64,000 nt of DNA from Xanthomonas sp. CFBP 8443 (lineage in GTDB: Bacteria; Pseudomonadota; Gammaproteobacteria; Xanthomonadales; Xanthomonadaceae). Below are positions 5,427 to 62,673 of this stretch, piece after piece (within the stretch, counting starts at the first letter, position 1; every line of letters starts with the position of its first letter). The notes beneath the pieces are model-generated. The model did not search any database. It saw only the letters and a list, made by a program, of their open reading frames with translations, and had not been told where the DNA came from. The stretch spans positions 4,464,001-4,528,000 of the forward strand of contig NZ_CP102592.1 in assembly GCF_025666195.1 (NCBI RefSeq), read 5' to 3'. A program made the position numbers and the translations under genes.

Positions 5427-5430
5427 GGCG

Positions 5431-5640: not shown

Positions 5641-5641
5641 A

Positions 5642-45031: not shown

Positions 45032-45089
45032 CGTGGTGGTTCCTGAAGGGGGTGGGAATAGCCGGCAATCTTGCGAGCCGCCGTTGACA

Positions 45090-45107
45090 GTTGAATGACC
45101 GTTCAAC
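45090..45107. promoter_or_regulatory. Candidate TetR operator
   Basis: GTTGAA-TGACCG-TTCAAC is an 18-bp sequence with perfect 6-bp arms between the divergent receptor (start 45031) and TetR (start 45157) genes, about 50-60 bp from each start. This placement fits a site that represses both. Confidence 0.6.
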
Positions 45108-45156
45108 GCACTTCCCTGGGCTACCATCGGCGTCACTCCCACGTGCGAGCGAATCC

Positions 45157-45774
45157 ATGCCTTCATTCGCCAGCAGCGACGCCGCTTCGGAAAACGACTA
45201 CGCCAGACAGAAGCGCCAGCGCATCCTCGACGCCGCGCGCGAGTGCTTCATCGAAGACGGTTTCGAGGCCGCGTCGATGGCCAAGATCGCAGCGCGCGCG
45301 GGCCTGAGTACCGGCCTGCCCTACCACTACTTCCAGAACAAACGCGCGATCGTATTGGCGCTGATCGAGCAGCACCTGGAGGAAAGTCGCCAGGGCCTGG
45401 CGCGGATCCAGGCCGCGGACGACCTGGCCGACACGCTGCAATCGGCCTTCGAACTGTGGCGCAGCCGCAAGGTCAGCGCGTTCCATGTCGGCCTGCAGAG
45501 CGAGATCACCGCGCTGGGCATGCGCGATGTCCACGTCGCGCGCGACCTGCAGCGCAACGGCCGGGACATGCGCCAGATGGTCGTGGGCTGGCTGCAGCAG
45601 CGCGACGCCAAGCAGGGACGAAGCCGTGCTGCGGACCAACTGGAGCTGGCCGCGGCCATGATCCAGTGCTTTTCCGACGGCCTGGCCCTGATGGCTGCGC
45701 GCGAGCCGGACTTCGACCCGGCCCTGGTCGAAGCCCTGCTGCAGCGCGTGGTGCCACTGGCGCTGGAAGGCTGA
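45157..45774 (+). CDS. TetR-family transcriptional regulator
   Basis: A 205-residue TetR protein: N-terminal helix-turn-helix (RQRILDAARECFIEDGFEAA, then GLSTGLPYHYFQNKRAIVLAL) and a helical ligand-binding domain. I chose the ATG at 45157; an upstream frame lacks a sensible start and overlaps the operator. It is divergent from the receptor-phosphatase operon and likely represses it in the absence of its ligand. Confidence 0.9.
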   Translation: MPSFASSDAASENDYARQKRQRILDAARECFIEDGFEAASMAKIAARAGLSTGLPYHYFQNKRAIVLALIEQHLEESRQGLARIQAADDLADTLQSAFELWRSRKVSAFHVGLQSEITALGMRDVHVARDLQRNGRDMRQMVVGWLQQRDAKQGRSRAADQLELAAAMIQCFSDGLALMAAREPDFDPALVEALLQRVVPLALEG

Positions 45775-46138: not shown

Positions 46139-47362
46139 ATGCCTAACCTACCCGCGTCCCATGAGCATCCTTCTCCGGCCATGCTGGCGCGCGCGCCGCA
46201 TCGACTGCTGTTCTTCGTCGGCGCAGGCAACCTGTTGCTGCTGATGGCTTGGTGGGCCCTATGGCTGGCCGGCCTGCACGGCGGCTGGGCGCTGCCGCAA
46301 CCGCCGTTGCCGGCCGGTTGGCTGCATGCATTGGCGATGCAGTACCTGGTGCTGCCCAGTTTCGTTTTCGGCTTCCTGCTGACCGTGTTCCCGCGCTGGA
46401 TGGGACTGCCGGAACTGCCGCGCCGACACTATGTGCCGATCGGCGCCGGGCTGTTCGGCGGACAGGCGGCGCTGCTGCTGGCGATGCTGGGCTGGGCGCC
46501 GGGCCTGTGGTTGGGACTGGCGCTGGCCATCGCCGGCTGGAGCGGTGCGCTGGTCGTGCTGGGCGGGCTGCTGAAGGCCGAGCGCGGCCGCACCTGGCAC
46601 GCATACTCGTGCTACGCGGCGTTGCTGCTGGGCTGGCTGGGCCTGCTGGCGTTCGCGGGCGTGGCCGCCGGCGAGAGCAGGCTGATGGCCGCCAACATCG
46701 CGTTGGGCAGCTTCGGCCTGCTGCTGCCGCTGTACCTGAGCGTCGCCCATCGCATGTTCCCGTTCTTCGCCGGCAACGCGGTGCCGGGTTACGTGGCGTG
46801 GCGCCCACTGTGGTGGCTGGCTGCGATGTGGGCAACGCTGCTCGCGCACCTGGCGCTGGCCCTGGCCGGCGCCGACGCCTGGCTATGGCTGGCCGACGCG
46901 CCTGCGCTCGCGCTCGCCGCGTACGCGCTATGGCGCTGGTGGCCGCGCGGCTGCATGCCCGGTCTGCTGGCCGCGCTGTTCATCGGCATGGCCTGGTTGC
47001 CGGTCACCTACGCGCTATACGTGGTCCAGAGCGTGGGCTGTCTGCTCACCGGGCAGTTGTTGCTGGGCCGTGGGCCGATCCACGCCTTGTCCATCGGCCT
47101 GTTCGGCAGCCTGCTGGTGGCGATGGTGACGCGGGTGACGCAGGGCCATTCCGGCCGCCCGCTGACGATGCCGCCGGTGGCCTGGTTCGCGTTCGCCGCG
47201 ATCCAGGGTGTGGCCACGATGCGGGTCGTCGCCGAACTGACACCGGACCCGTTGCGCTGGCAGGTGGCGGCCGCCGTCGGCTGGCTGCTGGCGCTGGCTC
47301 CCTGGGTAGCCCGGATCGGCCGCATCTACCTGAGTCCGCGCCCCGACGGCAAGGGCGGCTGA
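46139..47362 (+). CDS. nnrS: NnrS-family membrane protein
   Basis: A 407-residue integral membrane protein with about 12 hydrophobic helices, matching NnrS: the conserved LPLYLSVAHRMFPFF segment (about residue 195) and THVTQ-like GHSGRPL region (about 335) are present, with His residues that could bind haem. NnrS is tied to nitrite/NO metabolism and is found in denitrifiers, where it is induced by NO- or anaerobiosis-responsive regulators. It opens the nitrate respiration region and has an FNR-type box immediately upstream. The ATG lies almost at the predicted transcript start, so the message may be leaderless. Confidence 0.9.
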   Translation: MPNLPASHEHPSPAMLARAPHRLLFFVGAGNLLLLMAWWALWLAGLHGGWALPQPPLPAGWLHALAMQYLVLPSFVFGFLLTVFPRWMGLPELPRRHYVPIGAGLFGGQAALLLAMLGWAPGLWLGLALAIAGWSGALVVLGGLLKAERGRTWHAYSCYAALLLGWLGLLAFAGVAAGESRLMAANIALGSFGLLLPLYLSVAHRMFPFFAGNAVPGYVAWRPLWWLAAMWATLLAHLALALAGADAWLWLADAPALALAAYALWRWWPRGCMPGLLAALFIGMAWLPVTYALYVVQSVGCLLTGQLLLGRGPIHALSIGLFGSLLVAMVTRVTQGHSGRPLTMPPVAWFAFAAIQGVATMRVVAELTPDPLRWQVAAAVGWLLALAPWVARIGRIYLSPRPDGKGG

Positions 47363-47455
47363 GCGCACCATCGCGGGCGGGACGCGCCACTGGCATGCTT
47401 CGCAAATCCCACGTCGCCAAAGGCCAACCGGCGCTCCATGGCACACTATGGCGCG

Positions 47456-48283
47456 TCAGGCCGGCAGCAGTGCGCCACCCATCTGATGCAACGCCGCCAG
47501 GTCGAGCAGTTGCAGCTCGCGCCTGCTCACCTCGATCAGCCGCCGCAACTGCAAGCGCCGGAATGTGCGGCTCACGGTTTCCGGAGTGAGCCGCAGGTAG
47601 TTGGCGATGTCCGTGCGCGGCATTCCCAGGTGCAGCCGCTGCGCGGACAGCCCGCGCCGTTGCGCATGCTGCGACAGCAGCATGAGGAAGGCGGCCAGGC
47701 GCTGGTCTGCCTCGTAGCGCCCGATCAGCAGGCGGGTACTCCGATCGAGGCGGCGGCTGAGCAGGTCCAACAGGTTGCGCTGCAGGCCGGGAACGGTCTC
47801 GGTCAACCGCGTGACCGTGGCCAGCGGCAGGCGGCACAGCGATGTGGCCTCGAGCACGCGCGCGCTGCAGCCGTGGCGTTCGGCGTGGATGGCGTCCAGC
47901 CCGATCACGTCTCCGGGCATCGCGAAACCGAGGATCTGTTCCTCGCTCGACGGCGCGCCGACGACCAGCTTGACCGTGCCGCTGCGCACCACCAGCAACG
48001 CCAACATCGGATCGCCTTCGTGGAACAGGCACGCGCCCGCCGGGTACGGGCCGCTGTGCACGACGTGCAGGTGCATGTCGTGCACACGCTGCTCGTGACC
48101 ACGCGCCAGGCAGAGCGCGCCGACATCGCAGATCAGGCATTGCCGCATGGCGCTGCCGTTGCGGTTGGGACAGATCGGCAGCCGGCGCGGTACCGGCGGG
48201 TGGAGTGCGCTCGTGTGCCTAGGTGGTGACGCAACCGACGTGGCGGTGGCGCGCGCGGATGCAGCGTGCCGCCGCGCGTTCAT
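47456..48283 (-). CDS. FNR-type oxygen-sensing regulator (first of two)
   Basis: A CRP/FNR protein of 275 residues from ATG 48283, or 230 from ATG 48148. I prefer 48283 because it overlaps the stop of the preceding gene (TGATG), though the added 45 residues are unusual. The FNR cluster motif is intact: C49-x2-C52-x5-C58 and C150 (in ATSLC). A cNMP-type beta roll (about 70-170) and a helix-turn-helix with E-T-V-S-R in its recognition helix (PETVSR, which reads TTGAT-type sites) follow. Intact cysteines suggest a [4Fe-4S] O2 sensor. It is co-transcribed with the 82-residue protein from an FNR-type promoter, so it may regulate itself. Confidence 0.88.
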   Translation of the reverse strand: MNARRHAASARATATSVASPPRHTSALHPPVPRRLPICPNRNGSAMRQCLICDVGALCLARGHEQRVHDMHLHVVHSGPYPAGACLFHEGDPMLALLVVRSGTVKLVVGAPSSEEQILGFAMPGDVIGLDAIHAERHGCSARVLEATSLCRLPLATVTRLTETVPGLQRNLLDLLSRRLDRSTRLLIGRYEADQRLAAFLMLLSQHAQRRGLSAQRLHLGMPRTDIANYLRLTPETVSRTFRRLQLRRLIEVSRRELQLLDLAALHQMGGALLPA

Positions 48284-48528
48284 CCGCCACAGCACCCGCA
48301 GCAGCCGCCACCGTCCGCTGGCGCATCGCCATCGGCGACCAGTTCGGGCTTCGCGCCGAAGCTGCCGAGCACCGCCAGCACCTCGTGCGCCGGCAGCGAG
48401 GTCACGATGTCGAGCTGGCCGCTGGCCCGATCGATGCTGAGTTCGGCGCCAGGATCGGTGGTTCGCAACGCGGCCTGCATCAGTGCGATACGTTCCGCCG
48501 TCAGCGGCGTTTCGGAATGGATGGACAT
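48280..48528 (-). CDS. Small HMA-like protein with Cys-rich tail
   Basis: An 82-residue cytosolic protein. The core (about residues 8-65; segment DPGAELSIDRASGQLDIVTS) looks like a heavy-metal-associated (HMA) fold but lacks the usual CxxC loop. Instead the last ten residues are GGGCCGCCGG, with four cysteines. It precedes the first FNR gene, coupled by TGATG, and has an FNR-type box with a good -10 (TACAGT) upstream. It may carry copper or iron, or deliver metal to an anaerobic enzyme; this is inference. A ribosome binding site (GAGAG) precedes ATG 48528. Confidence 0.7.
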   Translation of the reverse strand: MSIHSETPLTAERIALMQAALRTTDPGAELSIDRASGQLDIVTSLPAHEVLAVLGSFGAKPELVADGDAPADGGGCCGCCGG

Positions 48529-48617
48529 GGCGGTCTCTCGTGCATGCACCGTCGCGCCGCGCAACTGCGGTCGCATCCGGGACACCGACACTGTAGGCCG
48601 CGGTACGCGGCACCGCC

Positions 48618-48631
48618 TTGACCGCAGTCAA
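48618..48631 (-). promoter_or_regulatory. FNR-type box of the HMA-like/FNR operon
   Basis: TTGAC-CGCA-GTCAA is a perfect inverted repeat. A -10-like TACAGT lies at 48590-48595, its centre exactly 32 bp from the box centre, as for an activator site at -41.5. This predicts a start site near 48583 and a leader of about 54 nt before ATG 48528. Confidence 0.7.
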
Positions 48632-48734
48632 GCGGACCGGGGCTCACATTCGTGCATTGCAGGAGCGCACAGGACAGCGCATGCGGCACGTGTCGCTGGC
48701 CGCGCCGCGAGCGACGCGATCTAGGAGCATCCGG

Positions 48735-49481
48735 CTACGGGCTCCCCCCGCCGGATGCGAACGCCTCCAGCCGCGCCGGATCGCGCAACACCACTTCGCG
48801 CTGCTTGATCGCGATGATGCCGTCGTCGCCGAGCCGGCGCAGCACGCGGCTGACCGTTTCCGGCGCCATGCGCAGGTAGTTGGCGATCTCGGTGCACGCC
48901 ATGGTCAGGTTGAAACGCGTGGCCGAGAAGCCCCGCTGCGCGTAGCGCCGCGACAGGTCGAGCAGGAATGCGGCCATGCGCTCTTCGGTGCGGTAGTCGG
49001 CGGCCAGCATCGACGCCTTGCCGATCTCCGCGCTGAGCAGGCTGAACAGCTTGGCCTGCAGGCCGGGCATGCGCGAGGCCAGCAGGGTCATCTTGGGAAA
49101 GGAGAACTGGCACAGCAGCACCGTGTCCAGCGCCACAGCGTTGCAGGGAAAGCGCGAGGAATGGATCGCGTTGAGCCCGATCACTTCGCCCGGCAGGCTG
49201 AAGCCCAGTACCTGCTCGTTGCCGTTGCTGTCGTTGACGAAGGTCTTGACCATGCCGGCCCGGACCGCGGCGATGGCGCGGAATTCCTCGCCGGTGCGGA
49301 AGATGTAGTCGCCGGCATGGAACGGGCCGACATGATCCACCAGCACATGCAGTTCGGAAAGCATCGACTTGTCGTAGCCCTGCGAGATGCAGGCATCGGA
49401 GAACGCGCAGGTCGAGCAGAAGCGCAGCTCGTCGCCATCGCTCGACGCGGCCGGATTGAGCGGGGGAGCGGACGACGTCAT
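48735..49481 (-). CDS. FNR-type oxygen-sensing regulator (second of two)
   Basis: A 248-residue FNR homologue closer to the classical form: C22-x2-C25-x5-C31 plus C124 (VLLCQFSF) provide the [4Fe-4S] ligands, with the residue spacing of E. coli FNR (20, 23, 29, 122). The beta roll (about 45-145), dimer helix and helix-turn-helix (CTEIANYLRMAPETVSRVLR) follow. The recognition helix has E-T-V-S-R like E. coli FNR. The gene is on the minus strand, 55 bp after the HemN-like gene. It is the likely master regulator of the nar operon here, while the other FNR protein may have a narrower role. Confidence 0.92.
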   Translation of the reverse strand: MTSSAPPLNPAASSDGDELRFCSTCAFSDACISQGYDKSMLSELHVLVDHVGPFHAGDYIFRTGEEFRAIAAVRAGMVKTFVNDSNGNEQVLGFSLPGEVIGLNAIHSSRFPCNAVALDTVLLCQFSFPKMTLLASRMPGLQAKLFSLLSAEIGKASMLAADYRTEERMAAFLLDLSRRYAQRGFSATRFNLTMACTEIANYLRMAPETVSRVLRRLGDDGIIAIKQREVVLRDPARLEAFASGGGSP

Positions 49482-49536
49482 CGGCCGCACCTGGACACGC
49501 GAACGGGGCTGCCGCAATGCGGCGACGGGTTACCGG

Positions 49537-50739
49537 CTAGGGAGCCGACGCTGGATGCTGAAAACATGCGGCAACGATACGCCATAGCAGCGCGCCGGTG
49601 AATGACAGCGACAGCACCTGGTCGTTCCAGCTGACCAGCCCCTGCTCCTCCAGCGGTCGCAGCCGCGCCAGCGCCAGCGCGAATTCGTCGTGGAACGGCA
49701 TGGCATCGGTGCGTTGCGTCGCCCGCGCATCCAGCCGGTAGTCGCAGGCCAGCGACTGCATGATCTCCGCGCGCATGGCCTCGTCCTGCGACTGCACCAG
49801 CCCGCGCTCGATGCCCAGCCGCCCGGCGGCGACGGCCGCGCACCAGCGCGCCGGATCGCCGATCGCCTGGCAGAACACCTCGCCCAGCTGGCTCTCCGCC
49901 CCCGCACCGATGCCGATCAGGTCGGTGCGCTCGGCGCGCACCGTTCCGGTCAGGTCGCAATACTGCGCACGGCTGCCGCGGCGCCAGGGCGGGCTGGACG
50001 CCACGGCGAAGGTGTCCGCCCCGGCAGGCGCATAGCCGGCCTCGCCGAGCCGTTGCACCGCATCGGCCAGCAGGCGCGGCAGCGTGGGACCGACCGCCGC
50101 CAGCCAGGCCAGTCCCACCCGATCCGGTCGCCACGACAATACCTCCTCCAGCCGCAAGGCATCCGGGTATCCGGCCAGCACGTGACCGGTGGCGGCAAAG
50201 CCGGCGCCGGCGATTGCCTCGCGCGCGGCCAGCCGCGACGCCGCGGACGCGGTGCCGTCGTCGAGCAGTACCCCGCGGGTACAGCCCGCGGCCACCAGCG
50301 AACGCGCCGCCACCGAATTGCCTGGCCGCAACAGCACGGCCACGTCCGCGCGTGCGACCGTGCGCAGCGACTGCGGGATCGCATTGAGCAAGCGCGCCAC
50401 GCCGCCGCAGCCGATCAGCTCGGGCAAGCCTTCGCCCAGCACGATGTACAGCACTTCGCGATCCTCGTCGAACAGCGCCGCGCTCCGCGCCAGCGCGCGC
50501 AACAGGCAGTGCAGGTACTCGCCCGGCGCGATCGGCGACCCGCCCCGCGGAGCGCCGAAGCACAACGTCAGCGAGCGCGGGATCAGGTGGTCGTTGCCGA
50601 CCCGCACCGTCTTGGCGAAATCGGCATCGCCGAAGCCGCAGACGTAGTGCGCGCAAGGCGGATGCAACGGCCAGTGCGGTGCTGCAGGCAGGTAGCGTGC
50701 CAGAGCAGCCCGGTCGATCGCGAACGGGGAGCATTCCAT
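49537..50739 (-). CDS. HemN-like protein lacking radical-SAM cysteines
   Basis: A 400-residue protein that aligns over its length with oxygen-independent coproporphyrinogen oxidase HemN: the N-terminal DRAALARYLPAAPHWPLHPP region, and a C-terminal HemN domain with LGEVFCQAIGD, EIMQSLACDYRLD and LSFTGALLWRIV. At the place of HemN's CxxxCxxC cluster (IPFCHKLCYFC in E. coli) it reads LTLCFGAPRGG, with one cysteine, and the GGGTP SAM-binding stretch is LGEGLPE. It cannot hold the usual [4Fe-4S]-SAM centre, so catalysis by HemN chemistry is unlikely; a haem-binding or regulatory role is possible. The ATG at 50739 is preferred because the predicted -10 (TAACGT, 50747-50752) lies past the GTG at 50760. 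Confidence 0.8.
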   Translation of the reverse strand: MECSPFAIDRAALARYLPAAPHWPLHPPCAHYVCGFGDADFAKTVRVGNDHLIPRSLTLCFGAPRGGSPIAPGEYLHCLLRALARSAALFDEDREVLYIVLGEGLPELIGCGGVARLLNAIPQSLRTVARADVAVLLRPGNSVAARSLVAAGCTRGVLLDDGTASAASRLAAREAIAGAGFAATGHVLAGYPDALRLEEVLSWRPDRVGLAWLAAVGPTLPRLLADAVQRLGEAGYAPAGADTFAVASSPPWRRGSRAQYCDLTGTVRAERTDLIGIGAGAESQLGEVFCQAIGDPARWCAAVAAGRLGIERGLVQSQDEAMRAEIMQSLACDYRLDARATQRTDAMPFHDEFALALARLRPLEEQGLVSWNDQVLSLSFTGALLWRIVAACFQHPASAP

Positions 50740-50774
50740 GCCGGACACGTTAGCGGCCACTTGCCAGCCAGGCC

Positions 50775-50788
50775 CTGATCAAGATCAA
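50775..50788 (-). promoter_or_regulatory. FNR-type box of the HemN-like gene
   Basis: On the minus strand TTGAT-CTTG-ATCAG, one mismatch from TTGAT-N4-ATCAA. The -10-like TAACGT (50747-50752) is centred 32 bp away, as for an FNR activator site at -41.5. This predicts transcription from about 50740, one base before the ATG at 50739. Confidence 0.7.
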
Positions 50789-50947
50789 GTCGGCGCTCGA
50801 ACGCGACGATCGCGATCGGGTGGCGACCGTGCGCCGGGGCGAGCGGTGTTGCGAATGGCTGCGCCGACGTCTCGGATGCGCAGCAGACCGAGCGGCTCGC
50901 CCCGCAACCGTGGGCGCCGTCCTGTCTCAGGCGTCGCTGCAGGCGGT

Positions 50948-52270
50948 TCAGGCCAGAGGTGCGTTCGCTGCGGCGGCGGCCTCGGCGATCTCCGGCAGGT
51001 CGGTCTGCGCGCGCAGGCCGGGATGCTGGCGATGCTCCATGCGCCGGACCGCGAAGTGCATCCACGCCAGGGCGATGCTCACCAGCACGAACAACAGCAT
51101 GAAACAGCTGGTCCACACCCCGATCAGGTCGTTCATCGCACCGAAGGCGATTGGCAGCACGAAGCCCCCCAACCCGCCGATCATGCCGACCACGCCGCCG
51201 ACCGCGCCGACGTGCTGCGGGTAGTAGGCCGGAATGTGCTTGAACACCGCGGCCTTGCCCAGCGACATGAAGAAGCCGAGCACGAACACCAGCACGGTGA
51301 ATGGGACCACGCCAACCGCCAGGTGGAAGGCGATGTCGCCGTCGATGCCCTTGATCACGTAACGGGTATCCGGGTACGCCAGCAGGAAGGTGCACACTAC
51401 CGATACGCTCAGCGTCCAGTACATCACCCGGCGCGCGCCATAGCGGTCCGACAGCAGGCCGCCAGCGATGCGGAACAGGCTCGCCGGGATCGAATAGCAG
51501 GCCGCGACCAGGCCGGCCTGGCGGATGTCCATGCCGTAGGCGCCGATCAGGTAGCGCGGCAACCACAACGCCAACGCCACGAACGCGCCGAACACGAAGA
51601 AGTAGTAGAGCGAGAAGCGCCACACCTGCAGCTTCGCCAGCGGCCGCATCTGCTCGCGGAACGACATCGGCTTGACGCCCGAGCGCTTGCGTTCGGCCTG
51701 CGAGGGATCTTCCTGGGTGCACAGGTAGAAGATCACCGCCATCACCGCCAGCGCCACGGCCCATACCTTCGCCACCGTGGTCCAGCCGGCCGCCACCATC
51801 AGCATTGGCGCCAGAAGCTTGGTCACGGCCGCACCGATGTTGCCGGCGCCGAATACGCCCAGCGCGGTGCCCTGCTTCGCCGCCGGGAACCACTTGGAGA
51901 CGTAGGCGACGCCGACCGAGAACGCGCCGCCGGCGATGCCGACGAACAGCGCCGCCAACAGGAACTGCGGGTAGCTGCGCGCATAGGTCAGCAGCCAGGT
52001 GGACGCCGCCGCGCACAACATCACCGCGGTCAGCAGGCGTCGGCCGCCGATCTGGTCGGTCAGCACGCCCAGGTTCACCCGGATCAGCGAACCGCTCAGT
52101 ACCGGCGTGGCGATGAGCAGGCCGAACTGGGTGTCGTTGAGTCCCAGTTGCTGCTTGATCTGGATGCCGACGATCGAGAAGATCATCCATACCGCGAAGC
52201 ACGTGGTGAAGGCGAAGGTACTGAGCCACAAGGCGCGCTGCTGGGCAGCGGAGGGAAGGACGGCGTTCAT
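50948..52270 (-). CDS. narK1: NarK1-type nitrate transporter (MFS)
   Basis: A 440-residue MFS protein with 12 helices and the nitrate-signature segments of the NarK1 type: GGAFSVGVAYVSKWFPAAKQGTALG and the later GLGGFVLP. NarK1 proteins are thought to work as H+/nitrate symporters, in contrast to the NarK2 antiporter type. It lies after the parvulin gene, so it closes the nar operon. The start is ATG 52270 (MNAVLPS), though a frame extends to 52318 without a ribosome binding site. Together with narK (60010-61428) it allows both initial nitrate entry and nitrate/nitrite exchange. Confidence 0.88.
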   Translation of the reverse strand: MNAVLPSAAQQRALWLSTFAFTTCFAVWMIFSIVGIQIKQQLGLNDTQFGLLIATPVLSGSLIRVNLGVLTDQIGGRRLLTAVMLCAAASTWLLTYARSYPQFLLAALFVGIAGGAFSVGVAYVSKWFPAAKQGTALGVFGAGNIGAAVTKLLAPMLMVAAGWTTVAKVWAVALAVMAVIFYLCTQEDPSQAERKRSGVKPMSFREQMRPLAKLQVWRFSLYYFFVFGAFVALALWLPRYLIGAYGMDIRQAGLVAACYSIPASLFRIAGGLLSDRYGARRVMYWTLSVSVVCTFLLAYPDTRYVIKGIDGDIAFHLAVGVVPFTVLVFVLGFFMSLGKAAVFKHIPAYYPQHVGAVGGVVGMIGGLGGFVLPIAFGAMNDLIGVWTSCFMLLFVLVSIALAWMHFAVRRMEHRQHPGLRAQTDLPEIAEAAAAANAPLA

Positions 52271-52356
52271 CGCATGGTCTGCATTCGTAGTGAAAGGCAC
52301 AGGCGCGCCTGCCTGCATCTTGGGCGGTTGGAGGGATGGCGGGAGGCCATGCCGGC

Positions 52357-53265
52357 TCAGGCCTCCGCTTCCGCCTCGATGGCATCCAGGCCGCTCACCC
52401 CGTAGTGTTCCTGCAACAGCTGCAGGTAGCGTTGCAGATCGCGTTGCCGCGACTGCAGTTCGAGGTAGTCGGCGATCCGCCGATGCACCTGCTCGAAGGT
52501 CTGCGGCAGGCCCGGCTCGATGTCGTCGACGACGACGACGTGATAGCCCCAGCGCGATTCCATCGGGAACCCGGCCAGGCCCTGGCGCAGGCGGAACAGT
52601 TGGCGGTCGAACTCCGGCGTGGTCTGCCCGCGCTGCAGCCAGCCCAGCTCGCCGCCCTGCTCGCGCGATGGGCAGTCGGAATGGCGCATGGCGAAATCGG
52701 CGAACAACTCCGGGCGCTGCTGCAGTTCGACAATCAGGCTCTCGCCGCGGCGGCGCGCCTCGTGGCGCCCGCCCACATCGTCGGCCGGCGCCGCGAACAG
52801 GATATGTCTGGCCTTGACCCGGTCCGGCGAGCGGAAGCGCTCGGCGTTCTGCGCGTAGTACCGCGCGCAGGCCTGCTCGTCCGGCACCCGCTGCTCGATC
52901 TCGCCCTCGAGCAGCATGCGTATCGTGGCCTCCTCGGCTGATTCGCGCCCGTCGGCAGGCAGTTGCGCCGCCAATCCCAGGCGCTCGCACTCGCGGCGCA
53001 GCAGTTCGCGCACCACCAGCGCGCGCGCCGCGGCCGCGCGCGACACCTGCGGCCGCATCGCGCGGTGGAACTGCATCTCCTGCGCGATATCCGCCTCGCT
53101 GATCGGCGTGTCGCCGACGAACAGCAGGCACGGCGCCGGCGCGCCCAGCGTGCGCGGGCCAGCATCCGCATCGTCGTGGTGCGCGTGCGCCTCCTCCGCC
53201 ACCGGCTGCTGCGAATCGATCACGGTGAGCGGCAGGCGCCGCGGCACGGACAAGGTGGCGGCCAT
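52357..53265 (-). CDS. Parvulin-type peptidyl-prolyl isomerase (NifM-like) of the nar operon
   Basis: A 302-residue PPIase: a long helical N-terminal chaperone part (about residues 50-165) and a parvulin domain (about 165-265, with RVKARHILF, GELGWLQRGQTTPEFD and WGYHVVVVDD). There is no signal peptide, so it acts in the cytoplasm. A parvulin gene follows narI in several Pseudomonas nar operons and may help NarG or NarH fold or mature. It starts only 2 bp after the narI stop. Confidence 0.88.
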   Translation of the reverse strand: MAATLSVPRRLPLTVIDSQQPVAEEAHAHHDDADAGPRTLGAPAPCLLFVGDTPISEADIAQEMQFHRAMRPQVSRAAAARALVVRELLRRECERLGLAAQLPADGRESAEEATIRMLLEGEIEQRVPDEQACARYYAQNAERFRSPDRVKARHILFAAPADDVGGRHEARRRGESLIVELQQRPELFADFAMRHSDCPSREQGGELGWLQRGQTTPEFDRQLFRLRQGLAGFPMESRWGYHVVVVDDIEPGLPQTFEQVHRRIADYLELQSRQRDLQRYLQLLQEHYGVSGLDAIEAEAEA

Positions 53266-53267
53266 GT

Positions 53268-53972
53268 TCAGCGCCTCCTGTCGTAGTTCAGCGGCGCCTG
53301 ACGCCGCCGCACCACCTGGTACGGACGCCACAGGTAGCTCAGCGGAATGCTCCAGACGTGCACCAGGCGGGTGAACGGGGCGATCAGGAACAGGGTCATC
53401 CCCAGAAACACGTGGGTCTTGTACACCCAGGAAACGTCGCTGATGTAGTCGGCCGCGCCCCAGCGGAAAGTGACGATGTGCTGCGCCCATTCGCCGAGCC
53501 GGATCATCACTGCGCCGTCCATGTGTTGCGTCGAGTAGCCGATACTGATCATGCCCAGCACCAACTGTGCGAACAGCAGCACCAGTACCAGCGTATCGCC
53601 GAAGGTACCGGTGGCGCGCACGCGCGGATTGGTCAGCCGGCGCACCAGCAAGATGGCGATGCCGACGAAGCAGAGCGCGCCGAACACGCCGCCGACGACC
53701 ATCGCCAGCAATTGCTTCTGCGGAGCAGTGATGAAGTGCTCGTACAGCGCGTGTGGCGTCAACAATCCGACCAGGTGTCCGCCCAGGATCGCCAGCACGC
53801 CGACATGGAAGCAGTTGCTGCCGATGCGCATGCCGCGGTCGGACAGCAGTTGGCTGGAGCCGGTGCGCCAGGTGTACATGGACTTGTCGAAGCGCACCCA
53901 GCTGCCGACGAAGAACACCGCCAGCGCGATGTACGGATAGATCTGGAATGCGAACTGATGCAAGTGGTTCAT
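53268..53972 (-). CDS. narI: Respiratory nitrate reductase gamma subunit (cytochrome b)
   Basis: A 234-residue five-helix membrane protein that anchors NarGH and oxidises quinol. The four haem-ligand histidines are present at positions 56, 66, 187 and 205, in FHVGVLAILGGHLVG and YKTHVFL/RLVHVWS; the last two match E. coli numbering. The start overlaps the narJ stop (ATGA). Confidence 0.96.
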   Translation of the reverse strand: MNHLHQFAFQIYPYIALAVFFVGSWVRFDKSMYTWRTGSSQLLSDRGMRIGSNCFHVGVLAILGGHLVGLLTPHALYEHFITAPQKQLLAMVVGGVFGALCFVGIAILLVRRLTNPRVRATGTFGDTLVLVLLFAQLVLGMISIGYSTQHMDGAVMIRLGEWAQHIVTFRWGAADYISDVSWVYKTHVFLGMTLFLIAPFTRLVHVWSIPLSYLWRPYQVVRRRQAPLNYDRRR

Positions 53973-54652
53973 GGCTTCACCTCGTTGATGGCCTGGATGC
54001 CTGCGACGGGCCGCGGGACCGGCTTGCAGTCTTCGCCCGGCGCCTGCGCGCCGAAGCGCACCGCTTCTTCTTCCCACAACCGGTCCATCGCCTCGGGCGA
54101 GTCGTCGCGCGCCTCGCCGCTGGCACGTTTGCGCAGCAGCGCCAGGTTCACTTCGCCATCGGCGTATTCCAGCAGCAACTCGAACAGCAGCGCGTAGCCG
54201 CTCTCGCGCTCGGCGGCGCGCGCCGCCAGCAGGCCGACGATATGGCCGACATGGCCCAGCCAGTCGCGCGCCTCCGCGTCGGGCCGCTGGTCCAAGTATT
54301 CCAGCAGCAGCGGCAGGTAGTCCGGCAGCTCCCGCGCGGACAGCTCGAAACCGTTGCTGCGGTAGGCTTCGATCAGGTCGACCATCGCCTGGCCGCGATC
54401 GCGGGACTCGCCGTGGATGTGCTCGAACAGCAGCAGGCTCATCGCCCGGCCGCGGTCGAACATGGACAGCCAGCGGTCCTGGACCGCGAGCGGGTCCTCG
54501 GCCAGCAGCTCCTGCACGAAGCCGCACAGCGCGGCGCGGCGCGGCGCCGACAAGGCCGGATCGTCGGCCGCCTGCAGCAGTTCCTCGCCGTGTTGCCAGA
54601 GAGCGTCCTGCGGATAATCCATCAGCACGCCGATCAGCTTGAGCAGGCTCAT
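53969..54652 (-). CDS. narJ: Nitrate reductase assembly chaperone
   Basis: A 227-residue NarJ/TorD-like chaperone, all-helical, with the family's MDYP start and the ELPDYLPLLLEYL segment (about 108-120). It binds the NarG N-terminus and helps insert the molybdenum cofactor and Fe-S cluster. It is not part of the final enzyme. The start overlaps narH's stop by 4 nt. Confidence 0.95.
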   Translation of the reverse strand: MSLLKLIGVLMDYPQDALWQHGEELLQAADDPALSAPRRAALCGFVQELLAEDPLAVQDRWLSMFDRGRAMSLLLFEHIHGESRDRGQAMVDLIEAYRSNGFELSARELPDYLPLLLEYLDQRPDAEARDWLGHVGHIVGLLAARAAERESGYALLFELLLEYADGEVNLALLRKRASGEARDDSPEAMDRLWEEEAVRFGAQAPGEDCKPVPRPVAGIQAINEVKP

Positions 54653-56196
54653 CGCACCACCTCCTCGGTTCCGCGCCGATTGGGCGACGGCACCGTGTGG
54701 CCGGTGGGCTTGCGGTTGCCGAACAGGTCCGCCGCGCTGTCGCCATTGCAGCCATTGCCGAAGGTGAAGCCGCAACCGCCGCGCTCGCCGAAGGCGTCGT
54801 TGGCGTACTCGCGATGTGCGGTGGGGATCACGAAGCGGTCCTCGTAGTTGGCGATCGCCAGGTACCGGTACATCGACTCGGCCTGCGCCACGCTGAGTCC
54901 GGCCTGCTGCAGCACCGCGAGGTCTTCCACGCCGTCCACGTTCTTGGCGCGGCGCCACGCGCGCATCGCCATCAACCGCTCCAGCGCGCGCACCACCGGC
55001 GCCTCGTCGCCGGCCGACAGCAGGTTGGCCAGATAGCGCACCGGAATGCGCAGCGATGCGATGTCCGGCAGCTCGCCGTTCATGCCGATGTGGCCGCGCT
55101 CGGCCGCCGACTGGATCGGCGACAGCGGCGGCACGTACCACACCATCGGCAGCGTGCGGTATTCCGGATGCAGCGGCAGCGCCAGCTTCCAGTCGATCGC
55201 CAGTTTGTACACCGGCGAGGCCTTGGCCGCCTGCAGCCAGCTATCCGGGATGCCCTCGGCGCGTGCGGCGGCGATCACCTGCGGGTCTTCCGGGTCCAGG
55301 AAGATGTCCAGGTGCGCCTGGTACAGATCCTTTTCGGCCGGCACCGCGGCGGCGCTCTGGATGCGGTCGGCGTCGTACAGCATCACCCCCAGGTAGCGGA
55401 TGCGGCCGACGCAGGTTTCCGAACACACGGTCGGTTCGCCCATCTCGATGCGTGGGTAGCAGAAGATGCACTTCTCCGACTTGCCGCTCTTCCAGTTGTA
55501 GTAGATCTTCTTGTATGGGCAGGCCGACACGCACATGCGCCAGCCGCGGCACTTGTCCTGGTCGATCAGCACGATGCCGTCCTCCTCGCGCTTGTAGATC
55601 GCGCCCGATGGACACGCCGACACGCAGGCAGGATTCAGGCAGTGTTCGCACAGCCTCGGCAGGTACATCATGAAGGTCTTCTCGAACGCGCCGTAGATCT
55701 CCTTCTGTACGTTGTCGAAATTGCGGTCCTTGGATCGCTTGGCGAACTCGGTGCCGAGGATTTCCTCCCAGTTCGGCCCCCACTCGATCTTCTCCATGCG
55801 CTGGCCGCTGATCAGCGAGCGCGGGCGCGCGGTGGGCTGGTGCTTGACGTCCGGGGCGGTATGCAGGTGCTGGTAGTCGAACTCGAACGGCTCGTAGTAG
55901 TCGTCGATCTGCGGAAGGTCGGGGTTGGCGAAGATCTTCGCCAGCATCCGGAAACGTCCGCCGGCGCGTGGGATCAGCTTGCCGGCGGCGGTCCGCACCC
56001 AGCCGCCGTTCCACTTGTCCTGGTTCTCCCATTCCTTGGGATAGCCCACGCCGGGCTTGGTTTCGACGTTGTTGAACCAGGCGTATTCCACGCCCTCGCG
56101 CGAGGTCCATACGTTCTTGCAGGTGATCGAGCAGGTATGGCAGCCGATGCACTTGTCCAGGTTCAACACCATCGCGATTTGCGCACGAACTTTCAT
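54649..56196 (-). CDS. narH: Respiratory nitrate reductase beta subunit (4 Fe-S clusters)
   Basis: A 515-residue Fe-S protein. The ligands are visible: C16/C19/C22/C26; LCEHCLNPACVSACP; CRGWRMCVSACP, where Trp replaces one Cys to give the [3Fe-4S] cluster; and CIFCYPRIEMGEPTVCSETC. It carries electrons from NarI haem to NarG. The ATG overlaps the narG stop (TGATG). Confidence 0.97.
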   Translation of the reverse strand: MKVRAQIAMVLNLDKCIGCHTCSITCKNVWTSREGVEYAWFNNVETKPGVGYPKEWENQDKWNGGWVRTAAGKLIPRAGGRFRMLAKIFANPDLPQIDDYYEPFEFDYQHLHTAPDVKHQPTARPRSLISGQRMEKIEWGPNWEEILGTEFAKRSKDRNFDNVQKEIYGAFEKTFMMYLPRLCEHCLNPACVSACPSGAIYKREEDGIVLIDQDKCRGWRMCVSACPYKKIYYNWKSGKSEKCIFCYPRIEMGEPTVCSETCVGRIRYLGVMLYDADRIQSAAAVPAEKDLYQAHLDIFLDPEDPQVIAAARAEGIPDSWLQAAKASPVYKLAIDWKLALPLHPEYRTLPMVWYVPPLSPIQSAAERGHIGMNGELPDIASLRIPVRYLANLLSAGDEAPVVRALERLMAMRAWRRAKNVDGVEDLAVLQQAGLSVAQAESMYRYLAIANYEDRFVIPTAHREYANDAFGERGGCGFTFGNGCNGDSAADLFGNRKPTGHTVPSPNRRGTEEVVR

Positions 56197-59100
56197 CACG
56201 CCACCTCCCCTGCCGCGACCTTCGCGGATTCGCCATCCAGCCAATCGACCTTGTCCATCTTGCGCACCACCACGAACTCGTCGCGGTTGGTGCCACAGGT
56301 GCCGTAGTAGTTGAAGCCGTAGGACAGCTGCGCGTAGCCGCCGATCATGTGGGTGGGCTTGAGTACCACTCGTGTGACCGAGTTGTGGATGCCGCCGCGG
56401 GTGCCGGTGACCTCCGACCCGGGCGTGTTGATGATGCGTTCCTGCGCGTGGTACATCATCGCCATGCCGGACATCACCCGTTGGCTGACCACCGCGCGCG
56501 CGGCGATCGCGCCGTTGACGTTGAACAGCTCGATCCAGTCGTTGTCGACGATGCCGGCGCTGCGCGCGTCGTCCTCGCTGAGCCACACGATCGGGCCGCC
56601 GCGCGAGAGCGTCTGCATGATCAGGTTGTCGCTGTAGGTGCTGTGGATGCCCCACTTCTGGTGCGGGGTGATCCAGTTCAGCACGATCTCCTTGTTGCCG
56701 TTCGGCTTGCGCCCGAGCATCGGCGCGGCGGCCTTGGTGTCCACAGGCGGGCGATAGCCCATGAAGCCTTCGCCAAAGGCGATCATCCACTCGTGATCCT
56801 GGTAGAACTGCTGGCGCCCGGTCAGGGTGCGCCACGGGATCAGCTCGTGGACGTTGGTGTAGCCGGCGTTGTAGCTGACGTGGTCGTCCTCCAGCCCCGA
56901 CCAGATCGGCGAGGAGATGATCTTGCGCGGCTGCGCCTGGATGTCGCGGAAGCGGATCGCCTCGTGCTCCTTGCCCACCGCAAGATGGGTGTGCTCGCGG
57001 CCGGTGAACTTGCCCAGCGATTCCCATGCCTTCACCGCGACGTGGCCATTGGTTTCCGGCGCCAGGTGCAGGATCACCTCGCAGGCGTCGATCGCCGACT
57101 CGATCGCCGGACGTCCGTGGCTGACGCCGTCCTCCAGCACGGTATGGTTGAGCTTGCCGAGGAAGGCCACCTCGTCGCGGGTATCCCAGTTCATGCCCTT
57201 GCCGCCGTTGCCGTGCTTGTCCAGCAGCGGGCCGAGCGAGGCGAACTTCTTGTACAGGTTCGGATAGTCACGCTCGACCACCGTCATCGACGGCATGGTT
57301 CTGCCCGGCACCGCCTCGCACTCGCCCCTGGTCCAGTCGGTCACGCCCATCGGCATCGCCAGTTCGTTGGGGGTGTCGTGCAGGATCGGCACCAGCACCA
57401 GGTCCTGCTCCACGCCCAGCACGCCGGGCGCCATCGCGCTCAGCGTCCTGGCCACGCCCTTGAAGATGTCCCAGTCGCTGCGCGATTCCCAGGCCGGGTC
57501 CACCGCCTTGGACAGCGGGTGGATGAACGGGTGCATGTCCGAGGTATTGAGATCGTCCTTCTCGTACCAGGTGGCGGTTGGCAGCACGATGTCCGAGTAC
57601 AGCGCGGTCGTGCACATGCGGAAGTCCAGCGTCACCAGCAGGTCGAGCTTGCCCTCGGCCGGCGCGTCGTGCCACTTCACCTCGTCCGGCTTGCGCGCGC
57701 CCTCCTCGCCAAGGTCCTTGCCCTGCACGCCGTGGCGGGTGCCCAGGAAGTGACGGAGCATGTACTCGTGGCCCTTGCCGGAGGAACCGAGCAGGTTGGA
57801 GCGCCAGATGAACATCACCCGCGGGAAGTTCTGCGGCGAATCCGGATCGGCGTAGGCGAAATCCAACGTGCCATCCTTCAGCTTCGTCAGCGCGTACTCG
57901 GCCGGCGCCACGCCGGCGCGCTCGGCCTCGCGGGTCAGCTGCAACGGATTGCGGTCCAGCTGCGGCGCGCTCGGCAACCAACCCATGCGGATCGCGCGCA
58001 GGTTGAGGTCGGCGATGGTGCCGGTGAACTTGCTCGGGTCCGCCAGCGGCGACAGGATTTCCTTCACCTCCAGCTTCTCGTAGCGCCACTGGTCCGAATT
58101 GAAATAGAAGAACGAGGTCCCGTTCATGTGCCGCGGCGGACGACTCCAGTCCAGTCCGAACGCCAGCGGCTGCCAGCCGGTCTGCGGGCGCAGCTTCTCC
58201 TGACCGACGTAATGCGACCAGCCGCCGCCGGTCTGGCCGATGCAGCCGCACATGACCAGCATGTTGATCAGGCCGCGATAGTTCATGTCGTTGTGGTACC
58301 AGTGGTTCACCGCCGCACCGACGATGATCATGCTGCGCCCGCGGGTCTTGTCGGCGGTACGCGCGAATTCGCGCGCGATCTCGATCACGTCGGCACGCGG
58401 CACCCCGGTGATGCGTTCCTGCCAGGCCGGCGTACCGGGCACGTCCTCGTCAAAGCTGGTGGCCACGTTGCCGCCGCCGAAGCCGCGATCCACGCCGTAC
58501 TGCGCCAGCAGCAGGTCGTACACCGTGGTCACCTCGATCGTGCCGTCGGCGCCTTGCAGGCGGCGCACCGGCACATTGCGTTCGAGCACGTCCTGGAACG
58601 TGGACGCTGTCCACGGTGCACTCTCGATGCCGCCGAAATACGGAAAGCTGACCGCCTCGATCGCCTCGTGATCGTCCTTCAGGCTCAGCCGCAAGCGGGT
58701 CGCAGCGCCGGCGCTGTCCTGCTGTTCGATGTTCCACTTGCCCTGCTCGCCCCAGCGGAAGCCGATCGAGCCTTTCGGCACCACGATGCGGCCGCTGGCT
58801 TCGTCCCACGCCAGCGTCTTCCATTCCGGGTTGTTGTCCTCGCCCAGGCCGCCCAGGTCGCTGGCGCGCAGGTAGCGCCCCGCCACCAGGCGTCCATCCG
58901 CGCGACGCTCCAGCCGCACCAGCAGCGGCATGTCCGAATACTGCCGGCAATAGTCGGTGAAGTACTGCGAGGGGCTGTCGACGTGGAACTCGCGCAGAAT
59001 CACATGGCCGAACGCCATCGCCAGCGCCGCGTCGGTGCCCTGCTTGGGGTGCAGCCAGTGGTCGGTGAGCTTGGCCACTTCCGAGTAATCGGGCGTGACT

Positions 59101-59936
59101 GCCACGGTCTTGGTGCCGTTGTAGCGCGCCTCGGTGAAGAAGTGCGCGTCCGGGGTGCGCGTCTGCGGCACGTTCGAACCCCAGGCGATGATGTAGCGGC
59201 TGTTGTACCAATCGGCCGATTCCGGCACGTCGGTCTGCTCGCCCCAGACCTGCGGCGAGGCCGGCGGCAGGTCGCAGTACCAGTCGTAGAACGACAGGCA
59301 GGCGCCGCCCAGCAGCGACAGGTAACGCGCGCCGGCGGCATAGGACACCATCGACATCGCCGGGATCGGCGAGAAGCCGATCACCCGGTCCGGGCCGTAC
59401 TCCTTGACCGTGTACAGATTGGACGCGGCGATGATCTCGTTGGCCTCGTCCCACTGCACGCGCACGAAGCCGCCCATGCCGCGCCGCGACTTGTACGCGA
59501 TGGCCTTGGCCGGATCCTCGACGATGCTGGCCCACGCGTCCACGGGCGAGAGCGTCTTGCGCGCCTGCCGCCACATGCGCAGCAACGCGCCGCGCACCAG
59601 CGGGTACTTCAGCCGGTTGGCGCTGTACAGGTACCAGGAGTAGCTGGCGCCGCGCGGGCAGCCGCGCGGCTCGTGGTTGGGCAGGTCCGGGCGCGTGCGC
59701 GGGTAGTCAGTCTGCTGCGTCTCCCAGGTCACCAGCCCATTCTTGACGTAGATCTTCCAGCTGCACGAGCCGGTGCAGTTCACGCCGTGGGTGGACCGCA
59801 CGATCTTGTCGTACTGCCAACGGGCGCGGTAACCGTTCTCCCACTCGCGGCTCTCGCTCTTGGTGACCCCGTGTCCGTCGGCGAAGCGCTCTGGCGCTCG
59901 CTTGAAGAACTGCAGCCGGTCCAGGAAATAACTCAT
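56196..59936 (-). CDS. narG: Respiratory nitrate reductase alpha subunit (Mo active site)
   Basis: A 1246-residue molybdopterin enzyme, the catalytic subunit that reduces nitrate to nitrite. The N-terminal FS0 cluster ligands H50, C54, C58 and C93 and the Mo ligand D222 (YCDLPPASPQ) sit at the same numbers as in E. coli NarG. The enzyme works in the cytoplasm on the membrane with NarH and NarI. The ATG is at 59936, 73 bp after narK, and no promoter is evident between them, so transcription probably begins before narK. Confidence 0.98.
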   Translation of the reverse strand: MSYFLDRLQFFKRAPERFADGHGVTKSESREWENGYRARWQYDKIVRSTHGVNCTGSCSWKIYVKNGLVTWETQQTDYPRTRPDLPNHEPRGCPRGASYSWYLYSANRLKYPLVRGALLRMWRQARKTLSPVDAWASIVEDPAKAIAYKSRRGMGGFVRVQWDEANEIIAASNLYTVKEYGPDRVIGFSPIPAMSMVSYAAGARYLSLLGGACLSFYDWYCDLPPASPQVWGEQTDVPESADWYNSRYIIAWGSNVPQTRTPDAHFFTEARYNGTKTVAVTPDYSEVAKLTDHWLHPKQGTDAALAMAFGHVILREFHVDSPSQYFTDYCRQYSDMPLLVRLERRADGRLVAGRYLRASDLGGLGEDNNPEWKTLAWDEASGRIVVPKGSIGFRWGEQGKWNIEQQDSAGAATRLRLSLKDDHEAIEAVSFPYFGGIESAPWTASTFQDVLERNVPVRRLQGADGTIEVTTVYDLLLAQYGVDRGFGGGNVATSFDEDVPGTPAWQERITGVPRADVIEIAREFARTADKTRGRSMIIVGAAVNHWYHNDMNYRGLINMLVMCGCIGQTGGGWSHYVGQEKLRPQTGWQPLAFGLDWSRPPRHMNGTSFFYFNSDQWRYEKLEVKEILSPLADPSKFTGTIADLNLRAIRMGWLPSAPQLDRNPLQLTREAERAGVAPAEYALTKLKDGTLDFAYADPDSPQNFPRVMFIWRSNLLGSSGKGHEYMLRHFLGTRHGVQGKDLGEEGARKPDEVKWHDAPAEGKLDLLVTLDFRMCTTALYSDIVLPTATWYEKDDLNTSDMHPFIHPLSKAVDPAWESRSDWDIFKGVARTLSAMAPGVLGVEQDLVLVPILHDTPNELAMPMGVTDWTRGECEAVPGRTMPSMTVVERDYPNLYKKFASLGPLLDKHGNGGKGMNWDTRDEVAFLGKLNHTVLEDGVSHGRPAIESAIDACEVILHLAPETNGHVAVKAWESLGKFTGREHTHLAVGKEHEAIRFRDIQAQPRKIISSPIWSGLEDDHVSYNAGYTNVHELIPWRTLTGRQQFYQDHEWMIAFGEGFMGYRPPVDTKAAAPMLGRKPNGNKEIVLNWITPHQKWGIHSTYSDNLIMQTLSRGGPIVWLSEDDARSAGIVDNDWIELFNVNGAIAARAVVSQRVMSGMAMMYHAQERIINTPGSEVTGTRGGIHNSVTRVVLKPTHMIGGYAQLSYGFNYYGTCGTNRDEFVVVRKMDKVDWLDGESAKVAAGEVA

Positions 59937-60009
59937 CGTGCCTCTCCCATCGCTAATGTGTGCATCGTGGCTTGGGTGTTTCCAATCGTTGCGCGGCCAG
60001 GCGGCCGGA

Positions 60010-61428
60010 TCAGCACGGAACCTCGGCACCGCGCCGGTAGTACCACCACCAAGTCACCGCCAGGCAGGTGCAATAGAAGGCGACGAACACGTACAGCGCC
60101 GCCTCCGGACCGCCGGTCAGGGCGATCGACGAGCCATAGCTCTTGGGAATGAAGAATCCGCCATAGGCGCCGATCGCGCCGGAGAACCCGACCACCGCGG
60201 CCGATTCGATGCCCGCCTGCCGTGTCGCCGCGGCCTTGCCCTGCGCATCGGCGCGCGACGACCAGCGCTCGTGCAGCGTGCGGAAGATCACCGGGATCAT
60301 CCGGAACGTGCTGCCGTTGCCGATGCCGGTGAGCACGAACAGCGCCAGGAACGAGGCCAGGAAACCGAAGAAGTTGCCTGCGCCGTGCGCGCCGGGCAGG
60401 AAGTGCAGTACCGCGAACACCGCCGCAGCCATCAGCGCGAACACCCAGAAGGTGATCCGCGCCCCGCCCAGGCGGTCGGCCAGCATGCCGCCCAGCGGAC
60501 GCGTCAGTGCGCCGACCAGCGGGCCGAGGAACGCATAGGCCAGCGCGTTGACCTCGGGGAACTGGGTCTTCATCAGCATCGGGAACCCGGCCGAGAAGCC
60601 GATGAACGAACCGAAGGTGCCGACGTACAGCCAGCACATCAGCCAGTTGTGCTTGCGCCGGAAGATCAGCGCCTGCTGAGCGAAGGACGAGCGCACGCTG
60701 GCGATGTCGTTCATGCCGAACCACGCCGCGACGACGCAGGCCAGCAACAGCGGCACCCACAGGAAGCCGGCGTTCTGCAGGAACAGTGCCGTGCCGTCCT
60801 TGACCTGTTGCGGCGCGCCAGACAACGCGCCGAAGATGCCGAAGGCAATCACCTGCGGCACCACGAACTGCGTCACCGACACGCCCAGGTTGCCCAGCCC
60901 GGCGTTCATGCCCAGCGCGAAGCCCTGTCGCGCCTTCGGATAGAAGAACGAGATGTTGGACATCGAGGACGAGAAGTTCGCGCCACCCAGGCCGCAGCAG
61001 ATGGCGATGGCCACGAACACCCAGTACGGCGTGTTCGGATTCTGCACCGCGAAGCCCAGCCACAGCGCTGGGATCAGCAACAGGGCGGTGGACAGCGCTG
61101 TCCAGCGGCGCCCGCCGAACAACGGAATCACGAACGAATAGAAGATCCGCAGCGTCGCCCCCGACAGGCTCGGCAGCGCCACCAGCAGGAACAGCTGGTT
61201 GGTGTCGAAGGCGAAGCCCGCGCGCGGCAGGTTCACGCTCACCACCGAGAACAGCATCCAGATCGAGAACGCCAGCAGCAGCGAAGGGACGGAGATCGCC
61301 AGGTTGCGCGTGGCGATGCGCCGGCCGGTGCTTGCCCAATAGGCCGGGTCCTCGGGACGCCAGTCCTGGATGATGCGGCCGCGGCCGCCGCCGGGATTGT
61401 GAGTTGCGACATCTGCTTGAACAGTCAT
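60010..61428 (-). CDS. narK: NarK/NarU-type nitrate/nitrite antiporter (MFS)
   Basis: A 472-residue MFS protein of the E. coli NarK type: IIQDWRPEDPAYWASTG at the N-terminus and both nitrate signature motifs, GGANFSSSMSNISFFYPKARQG and GIGNGSTFRMIPVIFRT. It likely exchanges external nitrate for internal nitrite. The ATG at 61428 has a ribosome binding site (AGGTGA). The gene heads the narK-narGHJI operon and has a perfect FNR box at 61522-61535. Confidence 0.94.
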   Translation of the reverse strand: MTVQADVATHNPGGGRGRIIQDWRPEDPAYWASTGRRIATRNLAISVPSLLLAFSIWMLFSVVSVNLPRAGFAFDTNQLFLLVALPSLSGATLRIFYSFVIPLFGGRRWTALSTALLLIPALWLGFAVQNPNTPYWVFVAIAICCGLGGANFSSSMSNISFFYPKARQGFALGMNAGLGNLGVSVTQFVVPQVIAFGIFGALSGAPQQVKDGTALFLQNAGFLWVPLLLACVVAAWFGMNDIASVRSSFAQQALIFRRKHNWLMCWLYVGTFGSFIGFSAGFPMLMKTQFPEVNALAYAFLGPLVGALTRPLGGMLADRLGGARITFWVFALMAAAVFAVLHFLPGAHGAGNFFGFLASFLALFVLTGIGNGSTFRMIPVIFRTLHERWSSRADAQGKAAATRQAGIESAAVVGFSGAIGAYGGFFIPKSYGSSIALTGGPEAALYVFVAFYCTCLAVTWWWYYRRGAEVPC

Positions 61429-61521
61429 GGCCGTCACCTGATGAATTGGACTTGCGGCAGATGCGGAGATACAGCTCCCATCGCCCCACGGCCATTGAGC
61501 CATCACCGCGGCACCAGGCCG

Positions 61522-61535
61522 TTGATCGAAATCAA
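61522..61535 (-). promoter_or_regulatory. FNR box of the nar operon
   Basis: TTGAT-CGAA-ATCAA is a perfect consensus FNR site. A -10-like CTCAAT (61494-61499) is centred 32 bp away, which predicts a start near 61487 and a 59-nt leader before narK. Confidence 0.8.
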
Positions 61536-61560
61536 TCCCGCCGCCTCCAATCGGATATCC

Positions 61561-61574
61561 ATGACAAATGTCAA
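61561..61574 (-). promoter_or_regulatory. Second FNR/DNR-type site upstream of narK
   Basis: On the minus strand TTGAC-ATTT-GTCAT, one mismatch from TTGAC-N4-GTCAA. It is centred 39 bp upstream of the perfect FNR box and overlaps the end of the preceding gene. It may allow cooperative or alternative binding by the second FNR-type regulator. Confidence 0.5.
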
Positions 61575-61990: not shown

Positions 61991-62104
61991 GGATCGCTTC
62001 TCCACGTCAGTGATAGCGCAGCCGGGCGCATCGGCTCAGCGGTTGCGAAGGGATGGCCCCACAATCGACGCTCACTGCATCGCGCGCCGCAGCACATGGC
62101 GCCG

Positions 62105-62668: not shown

Positions 62669-62673
62669 CCCGC

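Follow-up and report, generated by a model that had tools for sequence, protein, structure and literature searches.

Comparison with described HemN-like proteins

Among HemN-related proteins, HemW is reported to deliver haem to NarI, the [4Fe-4S] cluster of E. coli HemW is required for haem transfer, and the HemN-like CgdH2 of Campylobacter jejuni has no coproporphyrinogen dehydrogenase activity and binds haem (PMC10320005). Here we describe a HemN paralogue without radical S-adenosylmethionine (SAM) motifs, termed pseudo-HemN, which is encoded in a nitrate-respiration (nar) island of Xanthomonas sp. CFBP 8443. The gene was analyzed within a stretch of 64,000 nucleotides (contig NZ_CP102592.1, positions 4,464,001 to 4,528,000), called the window, and positions are those of the window unless a contig is named.

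Compared to HemN/CgdH (TIGR00538, PDB 1OLT), the window protein lacks the CxxxCxxC and GGGTP motifs and the further SAM contacts of HemN, is about 55 residues shorter than the family model, and scores 90.1 bits against a cut-off of 324.95 with residues 223-394 as the best stretch; a true HemN is also present in the genome. HemW (TIGR00539) is HemN-related like the window protein, but the latter matches its model at 10.6 bits only (E 0.22, cut-off 205.4). The match to ChuW/HutW (TIGR04107) was weak and C-terminal (20.1 bits, cut-off 400), and the window protein has no radical-SAM motif. CgdH2 differs in that it retains the cluster motif, groups within the MenK branch and obtains its haem from ferrochelatase (PMC10320005). 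A precedent for this kind of protein is PsgB (NCBIfam TIGR04419, "HemN-related non-iron pseudo-SAM protein"). That model was matched by the HemW of the genome, but neither by the window protein (E up to 10) nor by eight longer relatives described below (E up to 1). Literature searches limited to open-licence papers listed no description of the pseudo-HemN protein.

Loss of the radical-SAM motifs

The gene and the two altered motifs are as follows.

49537..50739, minus strand: pseudo-HemN, a radical-SAM-dead HemN paralogue of 400 amino acids, ATG at 50739
50539..50571, minus strand: LTLCFGAPRGG, residues 57-67, remnant of the deleted [4Fe-4S] loop
50419..50439, minus strand: LGEGLPE, residues 101-107, at the GGGTP position of the family alignment

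A new, non-catalytic job is probable for this protein, because the motifs are lost, the fold is seemingly kept and the gene is maintained by selection. The original prediction that LTLCFGAPRGG and LGEGLPE stand in place of CxxxCxxC and GGGTP was confirmed in alignments. All 17 aligned rows of the short clade, to which the window protein belongs, were gapped at the columns of the second and third cluster cysteines, and none had a cysteine at the first. The third glycine of GGGTP was kept in 17/17 rows, the proline in 6/17 and the first glycine in 5/17. The Glu, Gln, Arg and Asp positions of E. coli HemN that we take to be further SAM contacts were replaced or deleted in every short-clade row. 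PF04055 was absent from the profile matches of the window protein (E up to 10). No radical chemistry would be expected by inference from the family, since the cluster and the SAM contacts are gone, and pseudo-HemN would neither make nor use a 5'-deoxyadenosyl radical.

HemN features had been proposed for both ends of the protein. The C-terminal half is clearly HemN by its TIGR00538 match. The N-terminal half resembles HemN too weakly to be caught by the profile libraries, and it was recognized only from its place in the family alignment and from the fold prediction. The predicted structure model shows a complete and confidently predicted HemN fold including the C-terminal domain, so that the catalytic motifs seem to have been lost from a protein that kept its fold.

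Residues C153, C261, C332 and C392 were invariant in the 17 short-clade rows, and C290 was a cysteine in 13 of them. Since C153 and C261 have no counterpart in any of the 12 intact rows, the barrel might have been re-purposed as a new catalyst with a metal site built from C153 and C261 together with C332, C392 and mostly C290. We regard this as quite unlikely, because C332 is also a cysteine in 12/12 intact rows, and because longer-clade rows have a cysteine at the C153 and C261 positions in 5/28 and 0/28 cases, respectively.

Association with the nar cluster

The nitrate-respiration island spans positions 46139-63989 of the window. The genes discussed below are listed in order of position.

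48735..49517, minus strand: FNR-type regulator crp1, downstream of pseudo-HemN, CxxCxxxxxC at the N terminus (NF008365, 176.9 bits, below the cut-off of 228)
50948..52270, minus strand: narK-type nitrate/nitrite transporter of 440 amino acids, upstream of pseudo-HemN (TIGR00886, 224.7 bits, below the cut-off of 311.7)
52357..53424 (range as scanned, start not refined), minus strand: PpiC/NifM-like peptidyl-prolyl isomerase (profile search)
53268..53972, minus strand: narI, haem-b subunit of nitrate reductase (PF02665 on an overlapping stretch)
56196..59936, minus strand: narG (TIGR01580, 2228 bits at G000:C1:4520235-4523933)
60010..61506, minus strand: narK2/NarU-type transporter, upstream of narG (profile search)

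The island is rare in the genus, since our sample includes 19 further genomes of this genus, none of them with a narG match. When the window protein was searched against 5.8 billion proteins, with 7,999 candidates scored, at least seven proteins of the same kind (96, 90, 90, 70, 43, 41, and 40% identity) and one intact HemN were found; one of the 90% identical proteins is filed under Xanthomonas. Orthologues were located in 16 named contigs, 15 titled Stenotrophomonas and one [Pseudomonas] hibiscicola, and all 16 loci had the gene order narK2-narGHJI-ppiC-narK-pseudo-HemN-FNR. The PpiC-type isomerase, which has a relative here in each of these loci, scored best with NifM (106 bits, below the cut-off of 168). 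Intact cysteines in relatives would have pointed to a recent decay of the window gene, but CxxxCxxC was found in none of the 16 named loci and in none of 11 loci of a longer clade, and the loss beside nar clusters is thus shared.

Pseudo-HemN was found in 35 of 91 Stenotrophomonas genomes and narG in 40, with all 35 among the 40 (Fisher p 3.6e-20, a statistic that ignores kinship). Four of the five narG-positive genomes without detected pseudo-HemN were read downstream of narG and had neither pseudo-HemN nor an FNR gene after narK in the stretch examined; the contig of the fifth (G508) breaks off within ppiC. Two genomes of this kind, G455 and G290, have an intact hemN adjoining a related FNR gene elsewhere in the genome, and G301 has such a pair with a split hemN. 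In the few Stenotrophomonas species with an intact pair it lies outside the nar cluster.

Pseudo-HemN is tied to nar more than to the FNR regulator, because 23 of 51 narG-negative Stenotrophomonas genomes retain the FNR gene (at least 71% identity) without pseudo-HemN. Eight of these 23 were read. In four of them (L185-L188) about 2 kb separate the FNR gene from moeA, whose vicinity is the place that the nar island would occupy; this is not the case in L189, L190, L194, and L199. Retention of the FNR gene alone weakens the idea that pseudo-HemN is a partner of the adjoining regulator, sensing haem or porphyrin and modulating the regulator, or protecting its cluster. The idea draws on gene order: pseudo-HemN is directly upstream of the FNR gene and probably co-transcribed with it, both in the window and in 16/16 named loci, and is beside an FNR gene in 9 of 11 longer-clade loci. 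For the remaining two (L147 and L198) the sequence read contains no FNR gene. Moreover, intact hemN also adjoins fnr, so the adjacency may be heritage, and we find a partnership with the regulator rather unlikely.

The original prediction had raised the question of a true hemN elsewhere in the genome. A canonical HemN was indeed located at G000:C1:2154568-2155920 (539 bits), and HemW was present as well (TIGR00539, 364.8 bits, cut-off 205.4). Canonical hemN was found in 90 of the 91 Stenotrophomonas genomes. The exception, G301, has no match at threshold and its hemN may be broken in the strain or in the assembly; a fnr-adjacent hemN in this genome (L195, G301:C1:2784000-2792000, 4479-5884) is split over two frames. 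In all 35 pseudo-HemN-positive genomes a canonical HemN scored above the cut-off (a partial match in G486). This would suit a pseudoenzyme that modulates the canonical haem pathway, be it at HemN, at ferrochelatase or elsewhere, and so damps or channels haem synthesis while nitrate is respired, as would the HemN model recognizing the C-terminal domain best; active-site-dead paralogues often regulate their relatives. Against this, E. coli HemN acts as a monomer, and modulation alone does not explain the tight link to nar. We hold such a modulator to be improbable, to about the same degree as the regulator partner.

Longer relatives and wider distribution

Longer motif-less relatives (426-461 amino acids in the nine loci first read) adjoin the same FNR-type gene in further genera of this family and, in a single case (G099), in a genome from a different family of the order. 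In the stretches examined, 7 of 11 longer-clade loci follow narHJI-ppiC-narK, with the gene directly after narK. A search with eight longer relatives (E up to 1e-60, 7,999 candidates scored) gave at least 85 matches, of which 12 have CxxxCxxC and 73 lack it, including four fragments and one 798-amino-acid protein. Where the dead proteins have been named by their sources, they are called either oxygen-independent coproporphyrinogen III oxidase or hypothetical protein, and the named hosts include Lysobacter, Thermomonas, Solilutibacter, and Rhodanobacteraceae, with Sphaerotilus for one fragment. Another HemN-like protein, P0079, has lost just one of the three cluster cysteines (AxxxCxxC), has GGGGP, and is a possible stepwise intermediate.

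A sample of 395 genomes of the family, in which four candidates per genome were scored so that misses are possible, contained 14 genomes with the short type and 10 with the long type (long-type at least 614.9 bits; next score 463.2). All ten long-type genes were read and none had the motif. narG was found in 23 of the 24 genomes with a dead HemN compared to 64 of 395 overall.

A predicted FNR-type promoter

Three further elements were found by motif scanning and inspection.

50775..50788, minus strand: FNR-type box, TTGATCTTGATCAG (plus-strand letters CTGATCAAGATCAA), starting 49 nucleotides upstream of the pseudo-HemN ATG
50747..50752, minus strand: TAACGT, a -10-like hexamer 22 nucleotides after the box, candidate promoter by sequence
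61522..61535, minus strand: perfect FNR box TTGATCGAAATCAA before narK2

The box before pseudo-HemN has one mismatch to the FNR consensus, TTGAT-N4-ATCAA, and the 22-nucleotide gap to TAACGT corresponds to class II spacing. Because the box starts 49 nucleotides before the ATG and is followed by TAACGT at this distance, the transcript is predicted to be leaderless or nearly so. Sites with 0-1 mismatches number four in the window, and 20 first-order Markov simulations gave 0.5 on average. A one-mismatch box at -48 or -49 was found in 42 of the 46 short-clade loci, a set that includes the window and in which some genomes are represented twice. One locus (L065) has its box at -69, and L064, L069, and L097 have no box with fewer than three mismatches within 320 nucleotides. 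The half-sites are kept while the middle four bases vary among lineages. Only one of nine longer-clade loci scanned (L148) has such a box; it has two, one of them also at -49. The well-spaced FNR promoter proposed for the gene is thereby upheld, at the level of sequence, as a box above chance at a conserved class II distance. Pseudo-HemN would then be made under low oxygen.

The crp1 gene may start at a TTG (49517, 19 bp past the pseudo-HemN stop) or at an ATG (49481). In S. maltophilia K279a the FNR-family gene of the nar cluster has been named fnr2 (Smlt2767), and the word coproporphyrinogen was not found in the part of that genome paper available to us (PMC2643945). A second FNR-type regulator with CxxCxxxxxC at its N terminus (47456-48172, minus strand) adjoins nnrS (46139-47362, plus strand). 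Between the two FNR-type genes lies an open reading frame of 103 amino acids (48280-48591, minus strand), which ends in GGGCCGCCGG and had no match in Pfam or NCBIfam; it perhaps encodes a small metal-binding protein. Further away, a 798-amino-acid frame (42770-45166, minus strand) was judged by eye to be TonB-dependent receptor-like.

Selection and evolution

The reading frame is uninterrupted from its ATG, no inner stop was found in any of the 35 Stenotrophomonas matches, and the ratio of nonsynonymous to synonymous substitution rates (dN/dS, pairwise, Nei-Gojobori) was well below 1, in agreement with the earlier view that this is no pseudogene. The median dN/dS of the dead HemN was 0.20 for the 16 named loci and 0.13 for 31 distinct short-clade genes, compared to 0.08 for the FNR gene and 0.07 for narK. 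For seven genomes with both genes (21 pairs) the median was 0.17 for the dead copy (range 0.04-0.25) and 0.09 for canonical hemN. By these measures pseudo-HemN is under purifying selection and less constrained than its neighbours.

A slowly decaying remnant, carried along in the nar island with fading function, would account for a dN/dS above that of hemN, narK, and crp1. It would also account for the low similarity of pseudo-HemN, which is lower than that of any other cluster gene when the window is compared with the 16 named loci (37-41% identity in the best segment, while narH has 85-93%, or about 90%), and another HemN, that of G465, appears to be degenerating independently. We nevertheless consider it very unlikely, given the absence of inner stops, the dN/dS range in the 21 pairs, the complete and confidently predicted fold, the FNR box at a fixed distance and the residues invariant across the short clade.

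One branch divides dead from intact rows in two trees (62 vs 28 and 53 vs 29 rows), but the program warns of long branches meeting. The HemN-like gene of G465 (L192, at about 4513-5871 on the minus strand of G465:C4:134500-142500) carries a damaged motif (CxxxCxC, GSGTP) beside an FNR gene and nnrS, and it seems to be a case of independent loss; the genome is a narG-positive Stenotrophomonas in which the short pseudo-HemN is missing. The motif was probably lost more than once among fnr-adjacent hemN genes, because L192 groups with Stenotrophomonas hemN once the other dead rows are removed from the tree. A second hemN copy may have turned pseudoenzyme in Lysobacterales, with the fnr-adjacent hemN still intact in some Stenotrophomonas.

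Proposed role in Nar assembly

The original prediction had offered a haem carrier, a regulator of haem use or a NarI maturation factor as possible roles. In the clade of the window, pseudo-HemN would belong to the nitrate-respiration programme. NarI holds two b haems, and the retained tetrapyrrole-binding shape may hold haem or a precursor, or hand it on to the Nar complex; alternatively, it may steer the canonical haem pathway during Nar assembly. We favour haem or porphyrin handling during Nar assembly because of the link to nar, the NarI haems, the reported haem transfer from HemW to NarI, and the haem-binding CgdH2. On this basis we rate the role a serious possibility, somewhat short of an even chance, and a haem/NarI step would be the most likely single function. 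More tentatively, the radical-SAM-free pseudoenzymes spread over Lysobacterales could form a family of haem chaperones specific to nitrate respiration, loading NarI or another anaerobic haemoprotein without the Fe-S cluster and SAM chemistry of HemW.

Several observations weigh against haem handling for Nar. For pseudo-HemN we identified neither a haem ligand nor a haem-binding motif or a partner, and because HemW is encoded in the same genome, haem delivery by pseudo-HemN would either duplicate that of HemW or add to it. A dead HemN is not strictly required for Nar, since none was detected in 5 of the 40 narG-positive Stenotrophomonas genomes or, among the four candidates scored each, in 41 of the 64 narG-positive genomes of the family sample; conversely, G227 has a long-type dead HemN and no narG match. 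The dN/dS of the dead HemN is roughly double the values for hemN, narK, and crp1. Judged by the aligned residues, the longer clade is less stripped of SAM contacts than the short clade: an acidic residue stands at the presumed SAM-contact Asp in 28/28 rows (D in 16, E in 12), and a few rows retain the Glu (2/28), Gln (2/28) or Arg (3/28) of the other presumed contacts.

The findings correct the annotation of several proteins without CxxxCxxC and GGGTP that carry the name oxygen-independent coproporphyrinogen III oxidase. A natural, cluster-free HemN that is under selection and linked with nar operons provides a means of parting haem handling from radical chemistry. It bears on how haem is delivered to membrane enzymes such as NarI, and on whether haem chaperones of the HemN family need radical SAM.
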